43,179 bases of DNA. Source: an uncultured bacterium (GTDB lineage Bacteria; Cyanobacteriota; Vampirovibrionia; Gastranaerophilales; Gastranaerophilaceae). The position numbers and the translations under genes are program-made. The notes beneath the pieces are model-generated. The model was given only the letters and a program-made list of their open reading frames with translations, had not been told where the DNA came from and did no database searches. The DNA is taken from assembly GCA_949282215.1 (NCBI GenBank), contig CASDPF010000014.1, positions 1-43,179 of the forward strand, given 5' to 3'. Of the stretch, positions 14,118 through 32,882 are shown piece after piece (within the stretch, counting starts at the first letter, position 1; each line of letters opens with the position of its first letter).

Positions 14118-14801
14118 CTATTTGCCTGCACCATATAGAACAGCTTCAGCAGCAGCAGTAGCAGGAAGAACTGTTTGGTCATACATAATTACAGGATAGA
14201 TATCTGTAGGGTTAGAAACTTTACAGTCTCCAGTTGTAGGACCTTTGAATGGATCAGTTTGACCATCACAATTAACAACTTTGTTAGGATTTTTTTCACC
14301 ATTAACATCTATTACACCAAAACAGTAACCAGTTTTTGCATCAGTACCTTTATTATTTATTTTATTATTTGCATCAATTTTATCAGTTGCATTACCTTCT
14401 GTACATTGAGATGAATTTGTTGCAAATGTAAAAGTAATACCATCATTAAAATACAATGTATAATTATTTGAGTCACCAAACTTTACATTAGTTGAATTAC
14501 TTGCGGTATATGCATTGCCACCTGTCTTAACAACGTTCATACGATTGTTAAACAAGTTGTACAGTGACGCATTGTCATTTGTAGTTGTAGAAGTTGTTTG
14601 AGACAAGTCATAGTCATCAAGAGCAACGTTCAATACAACAGCTTGGGACAATACAGACAGAGCTTTTTTGTAAGCTGTTTTGTATTGAGCACCGTTAGTT
14701 GAATTCATCAATGTAGGCATTGTCATAGCGGCAACTACCCCGATAATACCTAGCGTAATCAAGACTTCCGCTAAGGTAAAAGCATTTTTAAAACTTTTCA
14801 T
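14118..14801 (-). CDS. Type IV prepilin-like / pseudopilin protein
   Basis: 227 residues. A short class III signal (MKSFKNA) precedes FTLAEVLITLGIIGVVAAM, the N-methylation/prepilin helix with the conserved Glu at +5. The residue at -1 is Ala instead of the usual Gly. The globular part is Asn/Thr-rich, with four Cys and the motif IDVNGEKNPNKV, which recurs in the second prepilin of this window. Likely a minor pilin or pseudopilin, processed by a prepilin peptidase encoded elsewhere. The ribosome binding site is GGAGG. It is transcribed from a canonical promoter overlapped by a 15-bp inverted repeat and is divergent from an XRE regulator. A terminator follows. Confidence 0.85.
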   Translation of the reverse strand: MKSFKNAFTLAEVLITLGIIGVVAAMTMPTLMNSTNGAQYKTAYKKALSVLSQAVVLNVALDDYDLSQTTSTTTNDNASLYNLFNNRMNVVKTGGNAYTASNSTNVKFGDSNNYTLYFNDGITFTFATNSSQCTEGNATDKIDANNKINNKGTDAKTGYCFGVIDVNGEKNPNKVVNCDGQTDPFKGPTTGDCKVSNPTDIYPVIMYDQTVLPATAAAEAVLYGAGK

Positions 14802-14930: not shown

Positions 14931-15248
14931 GTGGATAAGGTACTCTTAGGCAAAAAGCTAAAACAAATAAGGATTTCCAGAGGGATTTCACAGGAACAGC
15001 TGTCAGAGATGATATATTTATCACCAAGACAAATGAGTATCATTGAAACAGGTAATTCTTATCCTTCTTTGGACACTTTTGTAAGAATTGCCGAAAAATT
15101 AGAATTTGATATTAACGACTTTTTTAACGTAAACATAAAAACGCAGGATGAAACCCGACAAAAAGTTATCGAACAGGTAAAAACACTCGATAAAAAGCAC
15201 TTAGACCTTGTAAGTGACATCATTAGTGCTATTGAAAAAAATTCATAG
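14931..15248 (+). CDS. XRE-family helix-turn-helix regulator
   Basis: 105 residues from a GTG start preceded by GAGGG. The N-terminal Cro/C1-type HTH (about 7-62) contains LKQIRISRGISQEQLSEM and SPRQMSIIETGNSYPSLDT. A helical tail of about 40 residues probably dimerises. It is transcribed divergently from the prepilin gene. A long inverted repeat lies in the shared intergenic region, so the prepilin promoter is the likely target. It resembles the second XRE gene at 30601 in size, domain layout and position. Confidence 0.85.
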   Translation: MDKVLLGKKLKQIRISRGISQEQLSEMIYLSPRQMSIIETGNSYPSLDTFVRIAEKLEFDINDFFNVNIKTQDETRQKVIEQVKTLDKKHLDLVSDIISAIEKNS

Positions 15249-28296: not shown

Positions 28297-28369
28297 GCGG
28301 AAGTAGCTCAGTTGGTAGAGCTTCTGCCTTCCAAGCAGAATGTCGCGAGTTCGAGTCTCGTCTTCCGCT
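28297..28369 (+). tRNA. tRNA-Gly (anticodon TCC)
   Basis: A full cloverleaf is visible. The acceptor stem GCGGAAG pairs with CTTCCGC. A D-arm is followed by anticodon stem TCTGC/GCAGA with loop CTTCCAA, giving anticodon TCC (reads GGA/GGG). The T-arm contains TTCGAGT. The discriminator base is T, as expected for bacterial tRNA-Gly. The CCA end is not encoded. A run of T follows directly and may help termination or processing. Confidence 0.97.
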
Positions 28370-28399
28370 TTTTTAGTACAGAAATTAGGGATTTGCATA

Positions 28400-29245
28400 A
28401 TGCTGAATGAAATTTTAGATTATCTTGATAAAATTCAAAAAGTTCTTACAACTATACATTTTGATCTTATAGTACAAATTATTTTAAACCTTGTTATCCT
28501 CGGTATTATATTCAAAGCTATAGATGTGTTTGAGAACAATTTGAAGAAAAAATTTAACGAAAATAAAAATTCTCAAATAGTAAAATTTATACCTGCCCTA
28601 ACAAGAATAATAAAATTTGTTATATTTTTCATCCTAGTAGCAGCTTTACTGCAAAATCACGGATATTCAATTTCATCATTAGTTGCAGGTTTTGGAATTA
28701 CAGGTTTGGCAGTAGGTTTTGCAGCAAACGCAACCATTGCAAATTTATTTGGAACTATTGCTATTTTATCCGACAAATCTTTTGAAGTCGGGGATTACAT
28801 TAAAATAGGAGCATTTGAAGGAACTGTAGAAGATATCAATATGCGTTCCACAAAAATTAGAACACTTGATAACGCATTGACAATAATCCCTAACAGCACC
28901 CTTGCAAACGGTGAAATAATTAATATAACCAAAGCCCACAAAAGAAGAATTTTAGAGACTATAGGCGTAACTTATGATACAAGTAATGAAAAATTAAAAC
29001 GTGCTATTGAAATTATTGAAGAAATTCTTAATCAAAACAGCGATATCTATGGGGATTACGTAGTATTTTTGGATACACTCGCAGACAGTTCTATCAATAT
29101 AAAAATTAATGCCTATGTAAAAACAAATAATTATGTAAAATATTTAAAAATAAAAGAAATAATCCTTCTTGAAGTAATAAAGCGTTTTAGAGAAGAAAAT
29201 ATTGATTTTGCATTCCCTTCAAGAACTTTATATATGGCAAAATGA
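28400..29245 (+). CDS. Small-conductance mechanosensitive channel (MscS family)
   Basis: 281 residues from the ATG at 28400. Longer reading would run into the tRNA, and AGGG lies upstream of this ATG. Two or three membrane helices in the first 110 residues end in the pore helix, SSLVAGFGITGLAVGFAANA, which has the Gly/Ala packing of MscS TM3. A beta domain follows (FEVGDYIKIGAFEGTVEDI), then the C-terminal alpha/beta domain. It releases solutes on hypo-osmotic shock. It overlaps rlmH by 4 bp (ATGA). Confidence 0.92.
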   Translation: MLNEILDYLDKIQKVLTTIHFDLIVQIILNLVILGIIFKAIDVFENNLKKKFNENKNSQIVKFIPALTRIIKFVIFFILVAALLQNHGYSISSLVAGFGITGLAVGFAANATIANLFGTIAILSDKSFEVGDYIKIGAFEGTVEDINMRSTKIRTLDNALTIIPNSTLANGEIINITKAHKRRILETIGVTYDTSNEKLKRAIEIIEEILNQNSDIYGDYVVFLDTLADSSINIKINAYVKTNNYVKYLKIKEIILLEVIKRFREENIDFAFPSRTLYMAK

Positions 29246-29712
29246 AAATCAAAATAATTGCACTAGGAAAAATTAAAGAGAAATTTTTAAAAGAGGGGAT
29301 TGACGAATTCTTAAAAAGATTAACCCCTTATGCAAGTATAGAAATTATAGAGCTTCAACCTATAGATATAAAAGATGAGCATTTGACAAAAAGAGTATTA
29401 GATGAAGAAGGGGAAAAAATTCTATCGTTAATTAAGCCTCAATCATACCTTATTACGATGGAAATTAACGGGAAACAGTTTTCTTCAGAAGAATTTGCTC
29501 AGAAAATATCCACTCTTACAAACGAAGGTCAAAGCGAAATAGTATTTGTAATAGGCTCCTCTTGCGGACTTTCTGAGAATGTATCAGCCAGAGCAAACTT
29601 AAAAATGAGTATGTCAAAAATGACCTTTCTTCACCAATTTGCAAGATTAATCCTTGTGGAACAGATATATAGAGCATTCAAAATCATAAAAGGTGAAACT
29701 TACCATAAATAA
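29242..29712 (+). CDS. rlmH: 23S rRNA pseudouridine-1915 N3-methyltransferase RlmH
   Basis: 156 residues, the standard RlmH length. This SPOUT enzyme methylates pseudouridine 1915 of 23S rRNA using SAM. Seen: start MKIKIIALGKIKEKFLKEG, VIGSSCGLS as the SAM-binding loop, and the invariant C-terminus with LHQFARLILVEQIYRAFKII and GETYHK. Translationally coupled to the channel gene by a 4-bp overlap. Its stop is 3 bp from the end of a convergent prepilin gene. Confidence 0.96.
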   Translation: MKIKIIALGKIKEKFLKEGIDEFLKRLTPYASIEIIELQPIDIKDEHLTKRVLDEEGEKILSLIKPQSYLITMEINGKQFSSEEFAQKISTLTNEGQSEIVFVIGSSCGLSENVSARANLKMSMSKMTFLHQFARLILVEQIYRAFKIIKGETYHK

Positions 29713-29715
29713 GTA

Positions 29716-30492
29716 TTAATAATTCATCTCCCAACCTTCTTCAATCACTCTTGCAGCACACATATGACCTTGTGCACTTGCTACATTTGGATTACAGTCT
29801 GTTGTATTCCGCCAATACGCATATGATGTTTCCCATTCATCTCCGGACTTCCATTTTGCATATACAACCCCACCCTGAGGATACCACTTACCGTCACAGC
29901 CCAACCATAGTGTAAAATTATCTCTACCAACTTTGTTCGGACCCTTAACACCGTTAACATCAATCATTACCCAACCACATGTGGTGGAAGGATTCACTTT
30001 TGGGTTTAACTGTTCATACTCATGCAATGTAAAATTCATTGACATCCCATTTGCCAGTTCAATCAAGCGAAGTTCCTGAATAGCAGAACCCTTATTCCCT
30101 CCCAAATAAACAGGTTGGCAAAACGTATCCTTTTCTTGACAAGTATAAACACTTAATTTGATATATTTACCTAACTCCTTTTTCATATAATTCTCGTAAC
30201 TCTGGCTAGAAGAGTCAAGATCCGGCTTTGCGAATTCAGTATTTTTATTTGATAAGTCAACATTATTAAATGCATTAATGTAGAACGAAGTATTTCGCAT
30301 ATCATCAACCCCGTCTTCAGCCATAATCTTCAGAGTAAGAGTATTAAGCATTGAAAAAGCCTGCTTGTAGCCGTTTACATAAACATTTTTTTGATAATTT
30401 TGCATAAGTGCAGGCAAAGTCATCGCAGCTACAATCCCAATAATCCCCAAAGTTATCAATACTTCCGCAAGTGTAAATCCTGATTTTTTCAT
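29716..30492 (-). CDS. Type IV prepilin-like / pseudopilin protein
   Basis: 258 residues from the ATG at 30492, placed 7 nt after GGAGG. The longer reading starts five codons earlier and loses this spacing. Signal MKKSG is cut before FTLAEVLITLGIIGIVAAM, with Gly at -1 and Glu at +5. The globular domain has several Cys and Trp, and carries IDVNGVKGPNKVG, the same motif as the first prepilin. Likely a minor pilin or pseudopilin. It is divergent from an XRE gene, with a canonical promoter between them, repeating the arrangement at 14118-15248. Confidence 0.87.
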   Translation of the reverse strand: MKKSGFTLAEVLITLGIIGIVAAMTLPALMQNYQKNVYVNGYKQAFSMLNTLTLKIMAEDGVDDMRNTSFYINAFNNVDLSNKNTEFAKPDLDSSSQSYENYMKKELGKYIKLSVYTCQEKDTFCQPVYLGGNKGSAIQELRLIELANGMSMNFTLHEYEQLNPKVNPSTTCGWVMIDVNGVKGPNKVGRDNFTLWLGCDGKWYPQGGVVYAKWKSGDEWETSYAYWRNTTDCNPNVASAQGHMCAARVIEEGWEMNY

Positions 30493-30512
30493 AAATATCC
30501 TCCACATACTAT

Positions 30513-30541
30513 ATAATATGGTATTTTACTTCTTTTGTAAA
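30513..30541 (-). promoter_or_regulatory. Promoter of the second prepilin gene, with overlapping inverted repeat
   Basis: On the minus strand TTTACA (30536-30541), 17 bp, TATTAT (30513-30518). A shorter inverted repeat, TACTT at 30527-30531 and AAGTA at 30540-30544, flanks the -35 box and may be the operator for the divergent XRE regulator. Confidence 0.65.
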
Positions 30542-30600
30542 GTAGTTTAAATGGATTTACTTAATATTTCGTATAACTAGTATTAATAGTAGGGGTAGAT

Positions 30601-30927
30601 ATGCAAAATCAGGTTTGTAAGATTTTAGGCGAAAACATAAAAAAACTAAGAAAAGCAAGAGGATTAAAACAAGACGAACTAGCAGAAATGATTGGAATTG
30701 AAATTAAATCACTCAGTTTGATAGAAACAGGGAAGGGATTTGTTTCTGCAAAGACTCTTGAAAAACTCGCAGCAGTACTAAATACCAGATTGTCTGACCT
30801 ATTTGAGTATCAGGATGGGCAAAGCTGTGACAACCTATATGATATAATCCTAAATAATCTTGAACTAATAAAAAATAATCCGCAAAAATTGGAAACGATA
30901 AACATTGTACTAAAAAGCCTTATATAA
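30601..30927 (+). CDS. XRE-family helix-turn-helix regulator
   Basis: 108 residues, ribosome binding site AGGGG. The Cro/C1-type HTH (about 9-65) includes LRKARGLKQDELAEM, SLIETGKGFVSAKTLEKLA and LSDLFEY. The tail of about 40 residues is helical. It matches the XRE protein at 14931 in size and layout. It is divergent from a prepilin gene, and is probably the regulator of that gene. Confidence 0.87.
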   Translation: MQNQVCKILGENIKKLRKARGLKQDELAEMIGIEIKSLSLIETGKGFVSAKTLEKLAAVLNTRLSDLFEYQDGQSCDNLYDIILNNLELIKNNPQKLETINIVLKSLI

Positions 30928-30998
30928 AACAAATACTACTTATCCACTTGATTTACGCAAAAAAACTGCTATAATTTGTTTTATCAAGGAGGACAATT

Positions 30999-32882
30999 AT
31001 GGAAGTAAATAAAATTACAACAACAAAAGTTAACCAGAAATATATCCACACCCCTGCTCAAAAACTAATTTCAACAAATATACAACAAGAAAATAATGAC
31101 GAACTAATGAGGGAACTTGATAATATGGCAAATAGGAATAATGTAAGCTTCAAAGGAAATTATGACTTAAATCTTACTTCTGAAGAGTTACAAAAAAGAA
31201 CACATAAAGATTATTTGACTACTAAAAAAATGCTAAAACCTGATGCACCTGAATATCTTTCACTTGCAGATGGAGATAAGGAAGCACTTAAACACCTTGT
31301 CAAAGCAGCATATATATTAGAAAAAATAAATATGCAGCTTGATAATCCGCATAATCTTGAATTCAAAGAGTATTTAGATAAAGAAGTTGCAAAAGGCAAC
31401 AAAGATGCTGAAATGACTAAAACCCTTTTTGATGCACAAAAAGGTATTAACGCAATTGATTCAATGTCACAAAAAATAAACTTAGCAAAAGGTCATTCTG
31501 ACCTGCCAGGAAAAGGCGTATATCCTGAAGATTTAACAAAGGAAGAATTCCATTCAATTCTTACAAAAATGTTGAATGAAGGAAAAGATGAAGAGGTTAA
31601 AAAGATTTTGACCCAACGTTCAGTAGTGGAAAGAAATGGGGACGAACTTGTAGGAATTGATTATATTGATAAATATAAAGAAGATTTCGCAAAAATGGCA
31701 GATGAACTTGATAAAGCTGCCGAAACATCAACTAATGCAGACTTCAATGAATATCTGAAATTACAAGCAAAAGCACTAAGAGAAGCAGCCCCTATGCTAG
31801 ATGCCTATGCAGACAAGAAATGGGCAACGCTTCAAGATACACCTCTTGAATTCACTATTACAAGAGAAAACTACCAGGATGAAATGACCGGTACAATTGT
31901 TGAGAACAAAGAACTAAGTAAAATGCTTGAAGAAAGAGGCATTTCACCAATTCCTAAAGATTTCTTAGGAGGCAGAGTAGGCATTGTAAATAAAGAAGGC
32001 ACAGATGCCTTAATGGCTATAAAACAATATCTTCCGACTTTAGCAAAAAATATGCCTTATGCTGATGAATATGAACAAAACATCTCAACAAAAGGTGATG
32101 CTAAACAAACTATGGTTGATGTGGATCTTGTAGCTGTAACCGGTAATGTTGGAGAATATAGAGGAGGAATTACCTTAGCGGAAAATCTTCCGAATGATGA
32201 TAAATTATCATTGCAAATCGGAGGAGGCAGACGTAACGTTTATCATAGACAAATCAGATTTATCAGTGATAAAGAAAAACTTCAAGAACGCCTTGATGCA
32301 ATATTAGATAAAGATCAACAACAATATTACCTGGATGAAGCTGACCACTGGTTTACAATAGGTCATGAAAATGCACATTCTCTTGGACCTAAAAACGGAA
32401 AAGAATCTCTTGGTAAATACAGAAACATCATAGAAGAAAATAAAGCAGATATGGGAGCACTTGCTTTTGTTGATTTGCTCACAGAGCTTGGAATGTACAC
32501 TCCTGAACAAAGAAAACAGATTATTGTTACAACAGTGACTGATAACTTCCTAAAATCAAAACCGACTTTATCCCAAGCTCATAGAGTCAGAACGGTTATG
32601 CAGAATAAATATTTTGCCGAAAGAGGAGCCTATGATATTACTCCTGAAGGTAAAATTCACGTTAACATAGACAAAGTTGTACCGATTGCAAAAGAAATGC
32701 TTGCAGAAATCGTAAGAATTCAAATAGACGGGGACTTTGATAAAGCTGAAAAATATGTCAATGATAACTTCGTATGGACTGATAATATGGAGTTTATCGC
32801 ACAAAAATTGCAGCAAGTAAGCAAATCTTTAAACGGACGCCTAGAATCTGAGCTTGCTGAAAAACTTTTAAAAGAAGAATAA
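30999..32882 (+). CDS. M49-like (dipeptidyl peptidase III-type) zinc metallopeptidase
   Basis: 627 residues, preceded by AAGGAGG. The zinc site is H456-E457-N-A-H460 (GHENAHSLGP) with E479/E480 in EENKADMGAL. Bacterial M49-like/DPP III-type proteins have a HExxH-x2-GP followed by EExKAD in the same way, whereas classical DPP III has HExxxH. QIGGGRRNVYHRQIRF and the late RVRTVMQNKYF are also consistent. There is no signal peptide. The first 50 residues are polar and end in NNVSFKG (about 47-53), a motif similar to the one in the 721-residue protein. Probably a cytoplasmic peptidase. Substrate unknown. Confidence 0.75.
   Translation: MEVNKITTTKVNQKYIHTPAQKLISTNIQQENNDELMRELDNMANRNNVSFKGNYDLNLTSEELQKRTHKDYLTTKKMLKPDAPEYLSLADGDKEALKHLVKAAYILEKINMQLDNPHNLEFKEYLDKEVAKGNKDAEMTKTLFDAQKGINAIDSMSQKINLAKGHSDLPGKGVYPEDLTKEEFHSILTKMLNEGKDEEVKKILTQRSVVERNGDELVGIDYIDKYKEDFAKMADELDKAAETSTNADFNEYLKLQAKALREAAPMLDAYADKKWATLQDTPLEFTITRENYQDEMTGTIVENKELSKMLEERGISPIPKDFLGGRVGIVNKEGTDALMAIKQYLPTLAKNMPYADEYEQNISTKGDAKQTMVDVDLVAVTGNVGEYRGGITLAENLPNDDKLSLQIGGGRRNVYHRQIRFISDKEKLQERLDAILDKDQQQYYLDEADHWFTIGHENAHSLGPKNGKESLGKYRNIIEENKADMGALAFVDLLTELGMYTPEQRKQIIVTTVTDNFLKSKPTLSQAHRVRTVMQNKYFAERGAYDITPEGKIHVNIDKVVPIAKEMLAEIVRIQIDGDFDKAEKYVNDNFVWTDNMEFIAQKLQQVSKSLNGRLESELAEKLLKEE

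Follow-up and report, generated by a model that had tools for sequence, protein, structure and literature searches.

Small HTH autoregulators such as CylR2, the C proteins of restriction-modification systems, RstR, and SinR typically act on the adjoining promoter. The XRE regulators described here have the same one-HTH build as CylR2, the C proteins, RstR of CTXphi, and SinR (66-110 aa); however, their partner is a prepilin, and dozens of diverged copies are present per genome. Compared with type IV prepilins (PF07963; geopilin and PilA), this partner has the same class III signal peptide, Glu at +5, and N-terminal helix, whereas at least 150 copies with highly divergent bodies are found here in 2.19 Mb. 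The Neisserial pilE/pilS and opa systems share with the present one a large repertoire of surface subunits, a conserved common N-terminus, and the exchange of variable bodies; in our case, however, most copies are complete, dispersed, and each equipped with its own control module, and the exchange was observed between species rather than within a clone. The homopolymer tracts of the Neisserial systems find their like only in the poly-G class of prepilins described below, and the pair at 29716-30927 has no homopolymer switch. Finally, type II toxin-antitoxin loci with XRE, AbrB, or ribbon-helix-helix (RHH) antitoxins use the same DNA-binding folds and are likewise small mobile two-gene units, but the genes here are divergent rather than co-directional, and the partner is a prepilin that matches no toxin family. 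For Gastranaerophilales, which are common uncultured gut residents with a little-known surface biology, one pilA has been reported among the type IV pilus genes of a termite Gastranaerophilus (PMC5877343), and in the open PMC literature we found no paper that describes such a repertoire or a pairing of prepilins with XRE genes.

The Prepilin-XRE Pair and Its Control Region

The window, which is the whole analyzed stretch of 43,179 nucleotides, represents one contig of a MAG of 2.19 Mb in 45 contigs. A preliminary description had placed a prepilin and a facing 108-residue XRE regulator at 29716-30927, and both the coordinates and the gene identities proved right, with the PF07963 and HTH_3 matches of the open reading frames above their cut-offs. 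The prepilin ORF, as listed, extends over 29716-30507 on the minus strand with its stop at 29716; however, the start codon is likely the ATG at 30492, because a GGAGG Shine-Dalgarno sequence, read directly at 30499-30503 on the same strand, precedes that ATG. The resulting prepilin of 258 aa (29716-30492, minus strand) was assigned to the type IV prepilins by its match to PF07963 N_methyl (27.3 bits, cut-off 21.2), an alignment of paralogues, and an AlphaFold2 model. It contains a class III signal peptide (KKSG/FTLAEVLITLGIIGIVAAMTLP), a hydrophobic helix, and Glu at +5, and the FTLAEV motif is invariant across the 27 aligned prepilin paralogues. In the model (pTM 0.71), a long N-terminal helix is followed by a C-terminal beta domain that includes a DVNGxKGPN motif. 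The N-terminal region matched geopilin and PilA chains of the PDB in a profile search, and a Foldseek search of the model against the PDB gave no significant match to a solved structure. A search of viral_contigs found nothing related to this prepilin, and no toxin or defence family in Pfam, NCBIfam, PHROGs, or PADLOC matched it. One PilB-like ATPase (674-aa frame) and two PilT-like ATPases of the type IV pilus machinery were identified in the genome, which suggests that a single type IV pilus machine is common to all of its prepilins.

The XRE regulator (30601-30927, plus strand, 108 aa) is a member of the HTH_3 family (PF01381, 47.3 bits, cut-off 23, E = 2e-12) and is composed of one Cro/C1 HTH and a short C-terminal helical tail, with no recognised sensor domain. 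Its closest solved relatives by sequence are PezA, C.BclI, DdrO, CylR2, and SinR; the match to the RstR phage repressor family NF041951 (46.5 bits) did not reach the cut-off of 80. The XREs resemble CylR2, the C proteins, and SinR at the sequence level, and a divergent autoregulated repressor would be the simplest reading. We proposed that the XRE is probably a repressor that controls its own synthesis and serves just the pilin gene beside it, and that the locus is one of many cassettes in a large prepilin repertoire that changes quickly and appears to depend on a single type IV pilus machinery. In each cassette, the prepilin is faced by a divergently transcribed DNA-binding protein, small and of one domain (an XRE in the present case), which would bind the common promoter region and limit its own expression; by repression rather than activation, it would keep its prepilin silent, or fix its level, without regard to the other cassettes. 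The prepilin, when expressed, would be displayed on the surface via the single PilB-type machinery. The two genes of a pair are acquired or lost together, and a regulator can come to stand over a different pilin body.

The two genes share an intergenic control region of 108 bp (30493-30600). A sigma-70-like pilin promoter (30513-30541, minus strand) was present as previously described, with TTTACA at 30541-30536, a spacing of 17 bp, and TATTAT at 30518-30513; as a consensus match, it is one of 8, where shuffled sequence gives 7.1. The inverted repeat TACTT-N8-AAGTA over the pilin -35 box, also part of that description, is indeed present at 30527-30544, but it does not exceed chance (best inverted repeat of the region, p = 0.36; best direct repeat, p = 0.65), and this candidate operator was dropped for that reason. 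The TACTT/AAGTA pattern occurs 4 times in the window versus 0.86 expected, and a further TTACTT lies at 30557-30562 in the same intergenic region. No homopolymer tract, the mark of a phase-variable contingency gene, was found in 30493-30600. We consider it unlikely that the XRE is instead an activator or dual regulator that, like the restriction-modification C proteins, undergoes autoregulated build-up and activates the pilin with a delay. HTH-only proteins of like size, including C.BclI and C.AhdI, are among the sequence matches, PADLOC control-protein models match, and several pairs carry tandem direct repeats, all of which would suit an activator; however, the candidate repeats of the present pair, themselves at chance level, cover the pilin -35 box and the sequence downstream of it, a location that would be better suited to repression.

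Divergent Pairing in the Genome and Its Relatives

The genome contains at least 150 PF07963 matches (the best 150 of 206 candidates scored) and 96 HTH_3 matches. Among the matches listed, 51 of the 96 XREs face a prepilin divergently at 98-260 bp, so that approximately one-third of the listed prepilins stand back to back with their own small XRE regulator. When all listed XRE-prepilin neighbours within 600 bp were considered, 51 were divergent, none was convergent, and one was on the same strand, whereas approximately one divergent pair is expected under a uniform null. We read out all 51 pairs, in which the XREs are 67-127 aa long and the intergenic regions mostly span 50-180 bp. The two modules in 43 kb that had been pointed out are real, but gave too low a picture of the genome.

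The pairing was also conserved across species. In three other species of the genus (G007, G009, and G012), at least 50 divergent pairs versus approximately 1.1 expected were counted among the best 150 matches over all three genomes. The relative closest by RlmH identity is G010, and 14 of the 24 prepilins in a 400-kb stretch of it have a divergent XRE; in named genomes, this holds for 8 of the 63 prepilins that were usable in a sample of 80 loci, mostly from Candidatus Gastranaerophilales MAGs. Assignment of the window's genome to the Candidatus Gastranaerophilales type is based on related MAGs that carry names. At first look, the candidate numbers lay between 12 and 205 within the family of the window, and mostly under 30 in other families of the class. 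Strict divergence, a tight gap, and conserved pairing, as expected of dedicated autoregulators, were thus found in both the genome and its relatives. Prepilins and XREs are both abundant, and chance neighbours might be expected in a genome rich in both families; this explanation is refuted by the counts (51 versus approximately 1, and 50 versus approximately 1.1 in relatives), and we assign it practically no probability. Because random placement of the XREs relative to the prepilins fails in the genome and in its relatives alike, the pairing stands, and there is strong support for the suggested family of paired pilin-regulator cassettes.

The other pair of the window comprises a prepilin of 227 aa (14118-14801, minus strand) and an XRE of 105 aa (14931-15248, plus strand), and is conserved in G010 with identities of 95% for the XRE and 96% for the pilin body. 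Its prepilin belongs to a sub-family with the N-terminus GFTLAEV...PTLMN(STNGAQYK), which is XRE-paired here and in L048 and lacks an XRE in L238, L239, and G010 C1:220945. The prepilin L216 is a pseudogene, with stop codons just past the conserved N-terminus (MKKKNAFTLAEV...PTLNPEE, then two stops).

Footprints against G010 revealed that the paired intergenic regions are near-identical between the genomes and contain repeated palindromes that differ from pair to pair, such as TTGCATGTATGCAA in three copies in L031, a conserved ATGATTTTATAAATCAT in L032, and a conserved ATGATATGTATATCAT with a second, inverted copy in the pair at 14118. Direct repeats (p <= 0.05) were present in 16 of 48 paired intergenic regions versus 1 of 36 divergent regions used as controls (Fisher p = 0.0006), and inverted repeats were not significantly enriched (11/48 versus 5/36). 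XRE similarity initially correlated with the intergenic words common to pairs (Mantel r = 0.21, p = 0.002); however, in-place shuffling of the regions gave a null mean of 0.183, and 52 of 300 shuffles reached the observed value. We do not claim XRE-operator co-variation, since the signal was largely lost under this control. Thus, the earlier remark that the modules have different operator sequences agrees with the individual footprints, but a family-wide matching of XREs and operators was not demonstrable by statistics. Private operators across the paired family are likely as judged from these sequences, and the pair at 29716-30927 itself carries no operator above chance.

Insertion of the Pair and Exchange of Pilin Bodies

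The whole pair is carried by a segment of approximately 1.23 kb (29718-30949) between rlmH and the gene at 30999. On the left, rlmH (29242-29712, plus strand) is 83-96% identical in 12 other genomes, and on the right, the gene at 30999-32882 (plus strand) encodes a conserved protein of 627 aa and directly follows rlmH in other genomes. In all 12 of the 12 other genomes of the genus, the site is empty, with rlmH followed by the gene at 30999 and no prepilin between them; the empty-site junction of G010 reads ATAAATAAGTATT/GATTTAC. We therefore concluded that the pair was inserted as a two-gene unit of approximately 1.23 kb in this lineage. Neither a recombinase nor common cassette ends were seen at the rlmH site or at the further sites compared. 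To the left of rlmH, a tRNA gene at 28297-28369 (Rfam RF00005) overlaps the listed start of an MscS-like ORF (28340-29245); the true start of the ORF is probably downstream of the listed one, at MLNEILDYLDK.

Unit insertion at an otherwise conserved site and a patchy presence are also features of a selfish two-gene module, in which excess prepilin would be harmful, by membrane insertion or by blocking the pilus machine, and the XRE would be a DNA-level antidote, so that the pair would spread and persist like a toxin-antitoxin unit. The partner folds (XRE, AbrB-like, and RHH) are antitoxin folds, and NCBIfam and PADLOC antitoxin models match the HTH weakly. We nevertheless regard this explanation as quite improbable: no toxin family matched the prepilin, many prepilins with bodies of this type have poly-G leaders instead of a DNA-binding partner, and the sites compared show no recombinase or common ends.

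A dedicated repressor whose pilin body is exchangeable was consistent with the comparison between the genome and G010. Fifteen own pairs have their flanks inside the G010 stretch, among which five are conserved (L023, L031, L032, L047, and the pair at 14118), six are absent, one is a deleted remnant, and three are body-swapped. In these three (L006, L010, and L014), the XRE was kept and the pilin body replaced relative to G010 contig C1 at the identical genomic place, with XRE and body identities of 75% and 31%, 95% and 41%, and 84% and 26%, respectively. In L010 and L014, the intergenic DNA is conserved between the species although the pilin body differs. The idea that duplication passed on XRE and pilin body together was rejected, as the similarities of the two are uncorrelated within the genome (Mantel r = -0.06, p = 0.82). 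The bodies were also not segregated between the XRE-paired and poly-G classes (same-class nearest neighbour 0.50, permuted 0.57, p = 0.89). Since XREs were kept over swapped bodies, the similarities were uncorrelated, and bodies were mixed between classes, we concluded from the sequence comparisons that a control module and the pilin body next to it act like parts that can be separated.

Proposed Alternative Control Modules of Prepilins

The 151 listed prepilins comprise 51 with an XRE, 52 with a poly-G leader, and 48 others, most of which were covered by a survey of non-XRE partners. Nine of these 48 face, in divergent orientation, a different kind of small HTH protein, with weak DUF6471/HTH matches or none (L213, L217, L220, L221, L225, L227, L240, L241, and L243). 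Three (L211, L212, and L214) face a divergent AbrB-like protein, called by eye from its repeated swapped-hairpin-type sequence and without a Pfam match, and one (L246) faces a divergent RHH protein (HicB/CopG, E = 5e-5); one further divergent XRE was also found. The XRE is thus replaced by unrelated folds at some prepilins. Because such unrelated DNA-binding folds fill one position, the property under selection seems to be local transcription control, that is, a DNA-binding protein controlling the prepilin that it faces.

These observations also bear on whether the XREs form a network over many prepilin promoters or distant genes, with adjacency reflecting co-transfer only. XRE-operator specificity has no statistical support, as such a network would allow; however, the neighbours stand strictly back to back at a narrow spacing, non-homologous DNA-binding proteins fill the XRE position, and the intergenic DNA is conserved between species even under a replaced body (L010 and L014). 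We therefore consider a network of this kind quite improbable.

A second large class of prepilins is preceded by a leader of approximately 200 nt that is common to its members and contains a poly-G tract, 11 G long in 41 of 49 sampled leaders. There are 60 copies of the leader in the own genome (L054, L057, L058, L059, and L060 are examples among the 60 places listed), 24 in G010, and 0-4 in other members of the genus. At 36 loci of the own genome and its relatives, the pilin frame extends upstream to the poly-G tract without a stop; with the tract length as assembled, the start codon of nearly every one of these loci is out of frame, and a change of one G in either direction restores the frame. 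Open-frame tracts of 8-12 G lie a few codons 5' of FTLAEV in the own genome (L050, L052, L053, L117, L215, L224, L232, and L245) and in relatives (L109, L128, L149, L150, L163, and L201). Homopolymer tracts of the phase-variable kind were thus found for the poly-G class in the genome of the window, and its prepilins look phase-variable and mostly off, with homopolymer assembly in MAGs as a caveat. The suggestion of individually switchable surface structures is plausible for the XRE pairs, in which every surface protein may be switched on and off by a control of its own, but sequence-level support for switching is most direct for the poly-G class, not the XRE class.

As a tentative view, about which we are slightly more doubtful than confident, a non-photosynthetic lineage of gut cyanobacteria might possess approximately 150-200 plug-in prepilins on one machine, the bodies being exchanged freely among loci and the control modules (a private divergent XRE, the second HTH type, an AbrB-like protein, an RHH protein, or a poly-G tract) being interchangeable, so that the population would show combinatorial, individually switched pilin sets. 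If true, this variable surface system, with dozens of regulator-paired and dozens of homopolymer-switched members, would rank with the largest of any small bacterial genome and would provide many paralogous repressor-operator pairs that occur together naturally and must not cross-talk within one cell. Such a repertoire raises questions about adhesion, phage receptors, and immune evasion that can be put to the test.

The poly-G leader has a fixed order, in which AGGAGG is followed by a 16-aa leader peptide (MQKxxIDRISGGGATN), the 11-G tract, an invariant ACCTCC, a GTGCC/GACAC hairpin, then T, and CGGAGG ahead of the pilin start. No Rfam family matched this leader. Continued coding of the leader-peptide frame through the terminator-like hairpin is not claimed, since no codon-position bias was observed. 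From its sequence, the ACCTCCG of the leader could pair with the pilin Shine-Dalgarno sequence CGGAGG.
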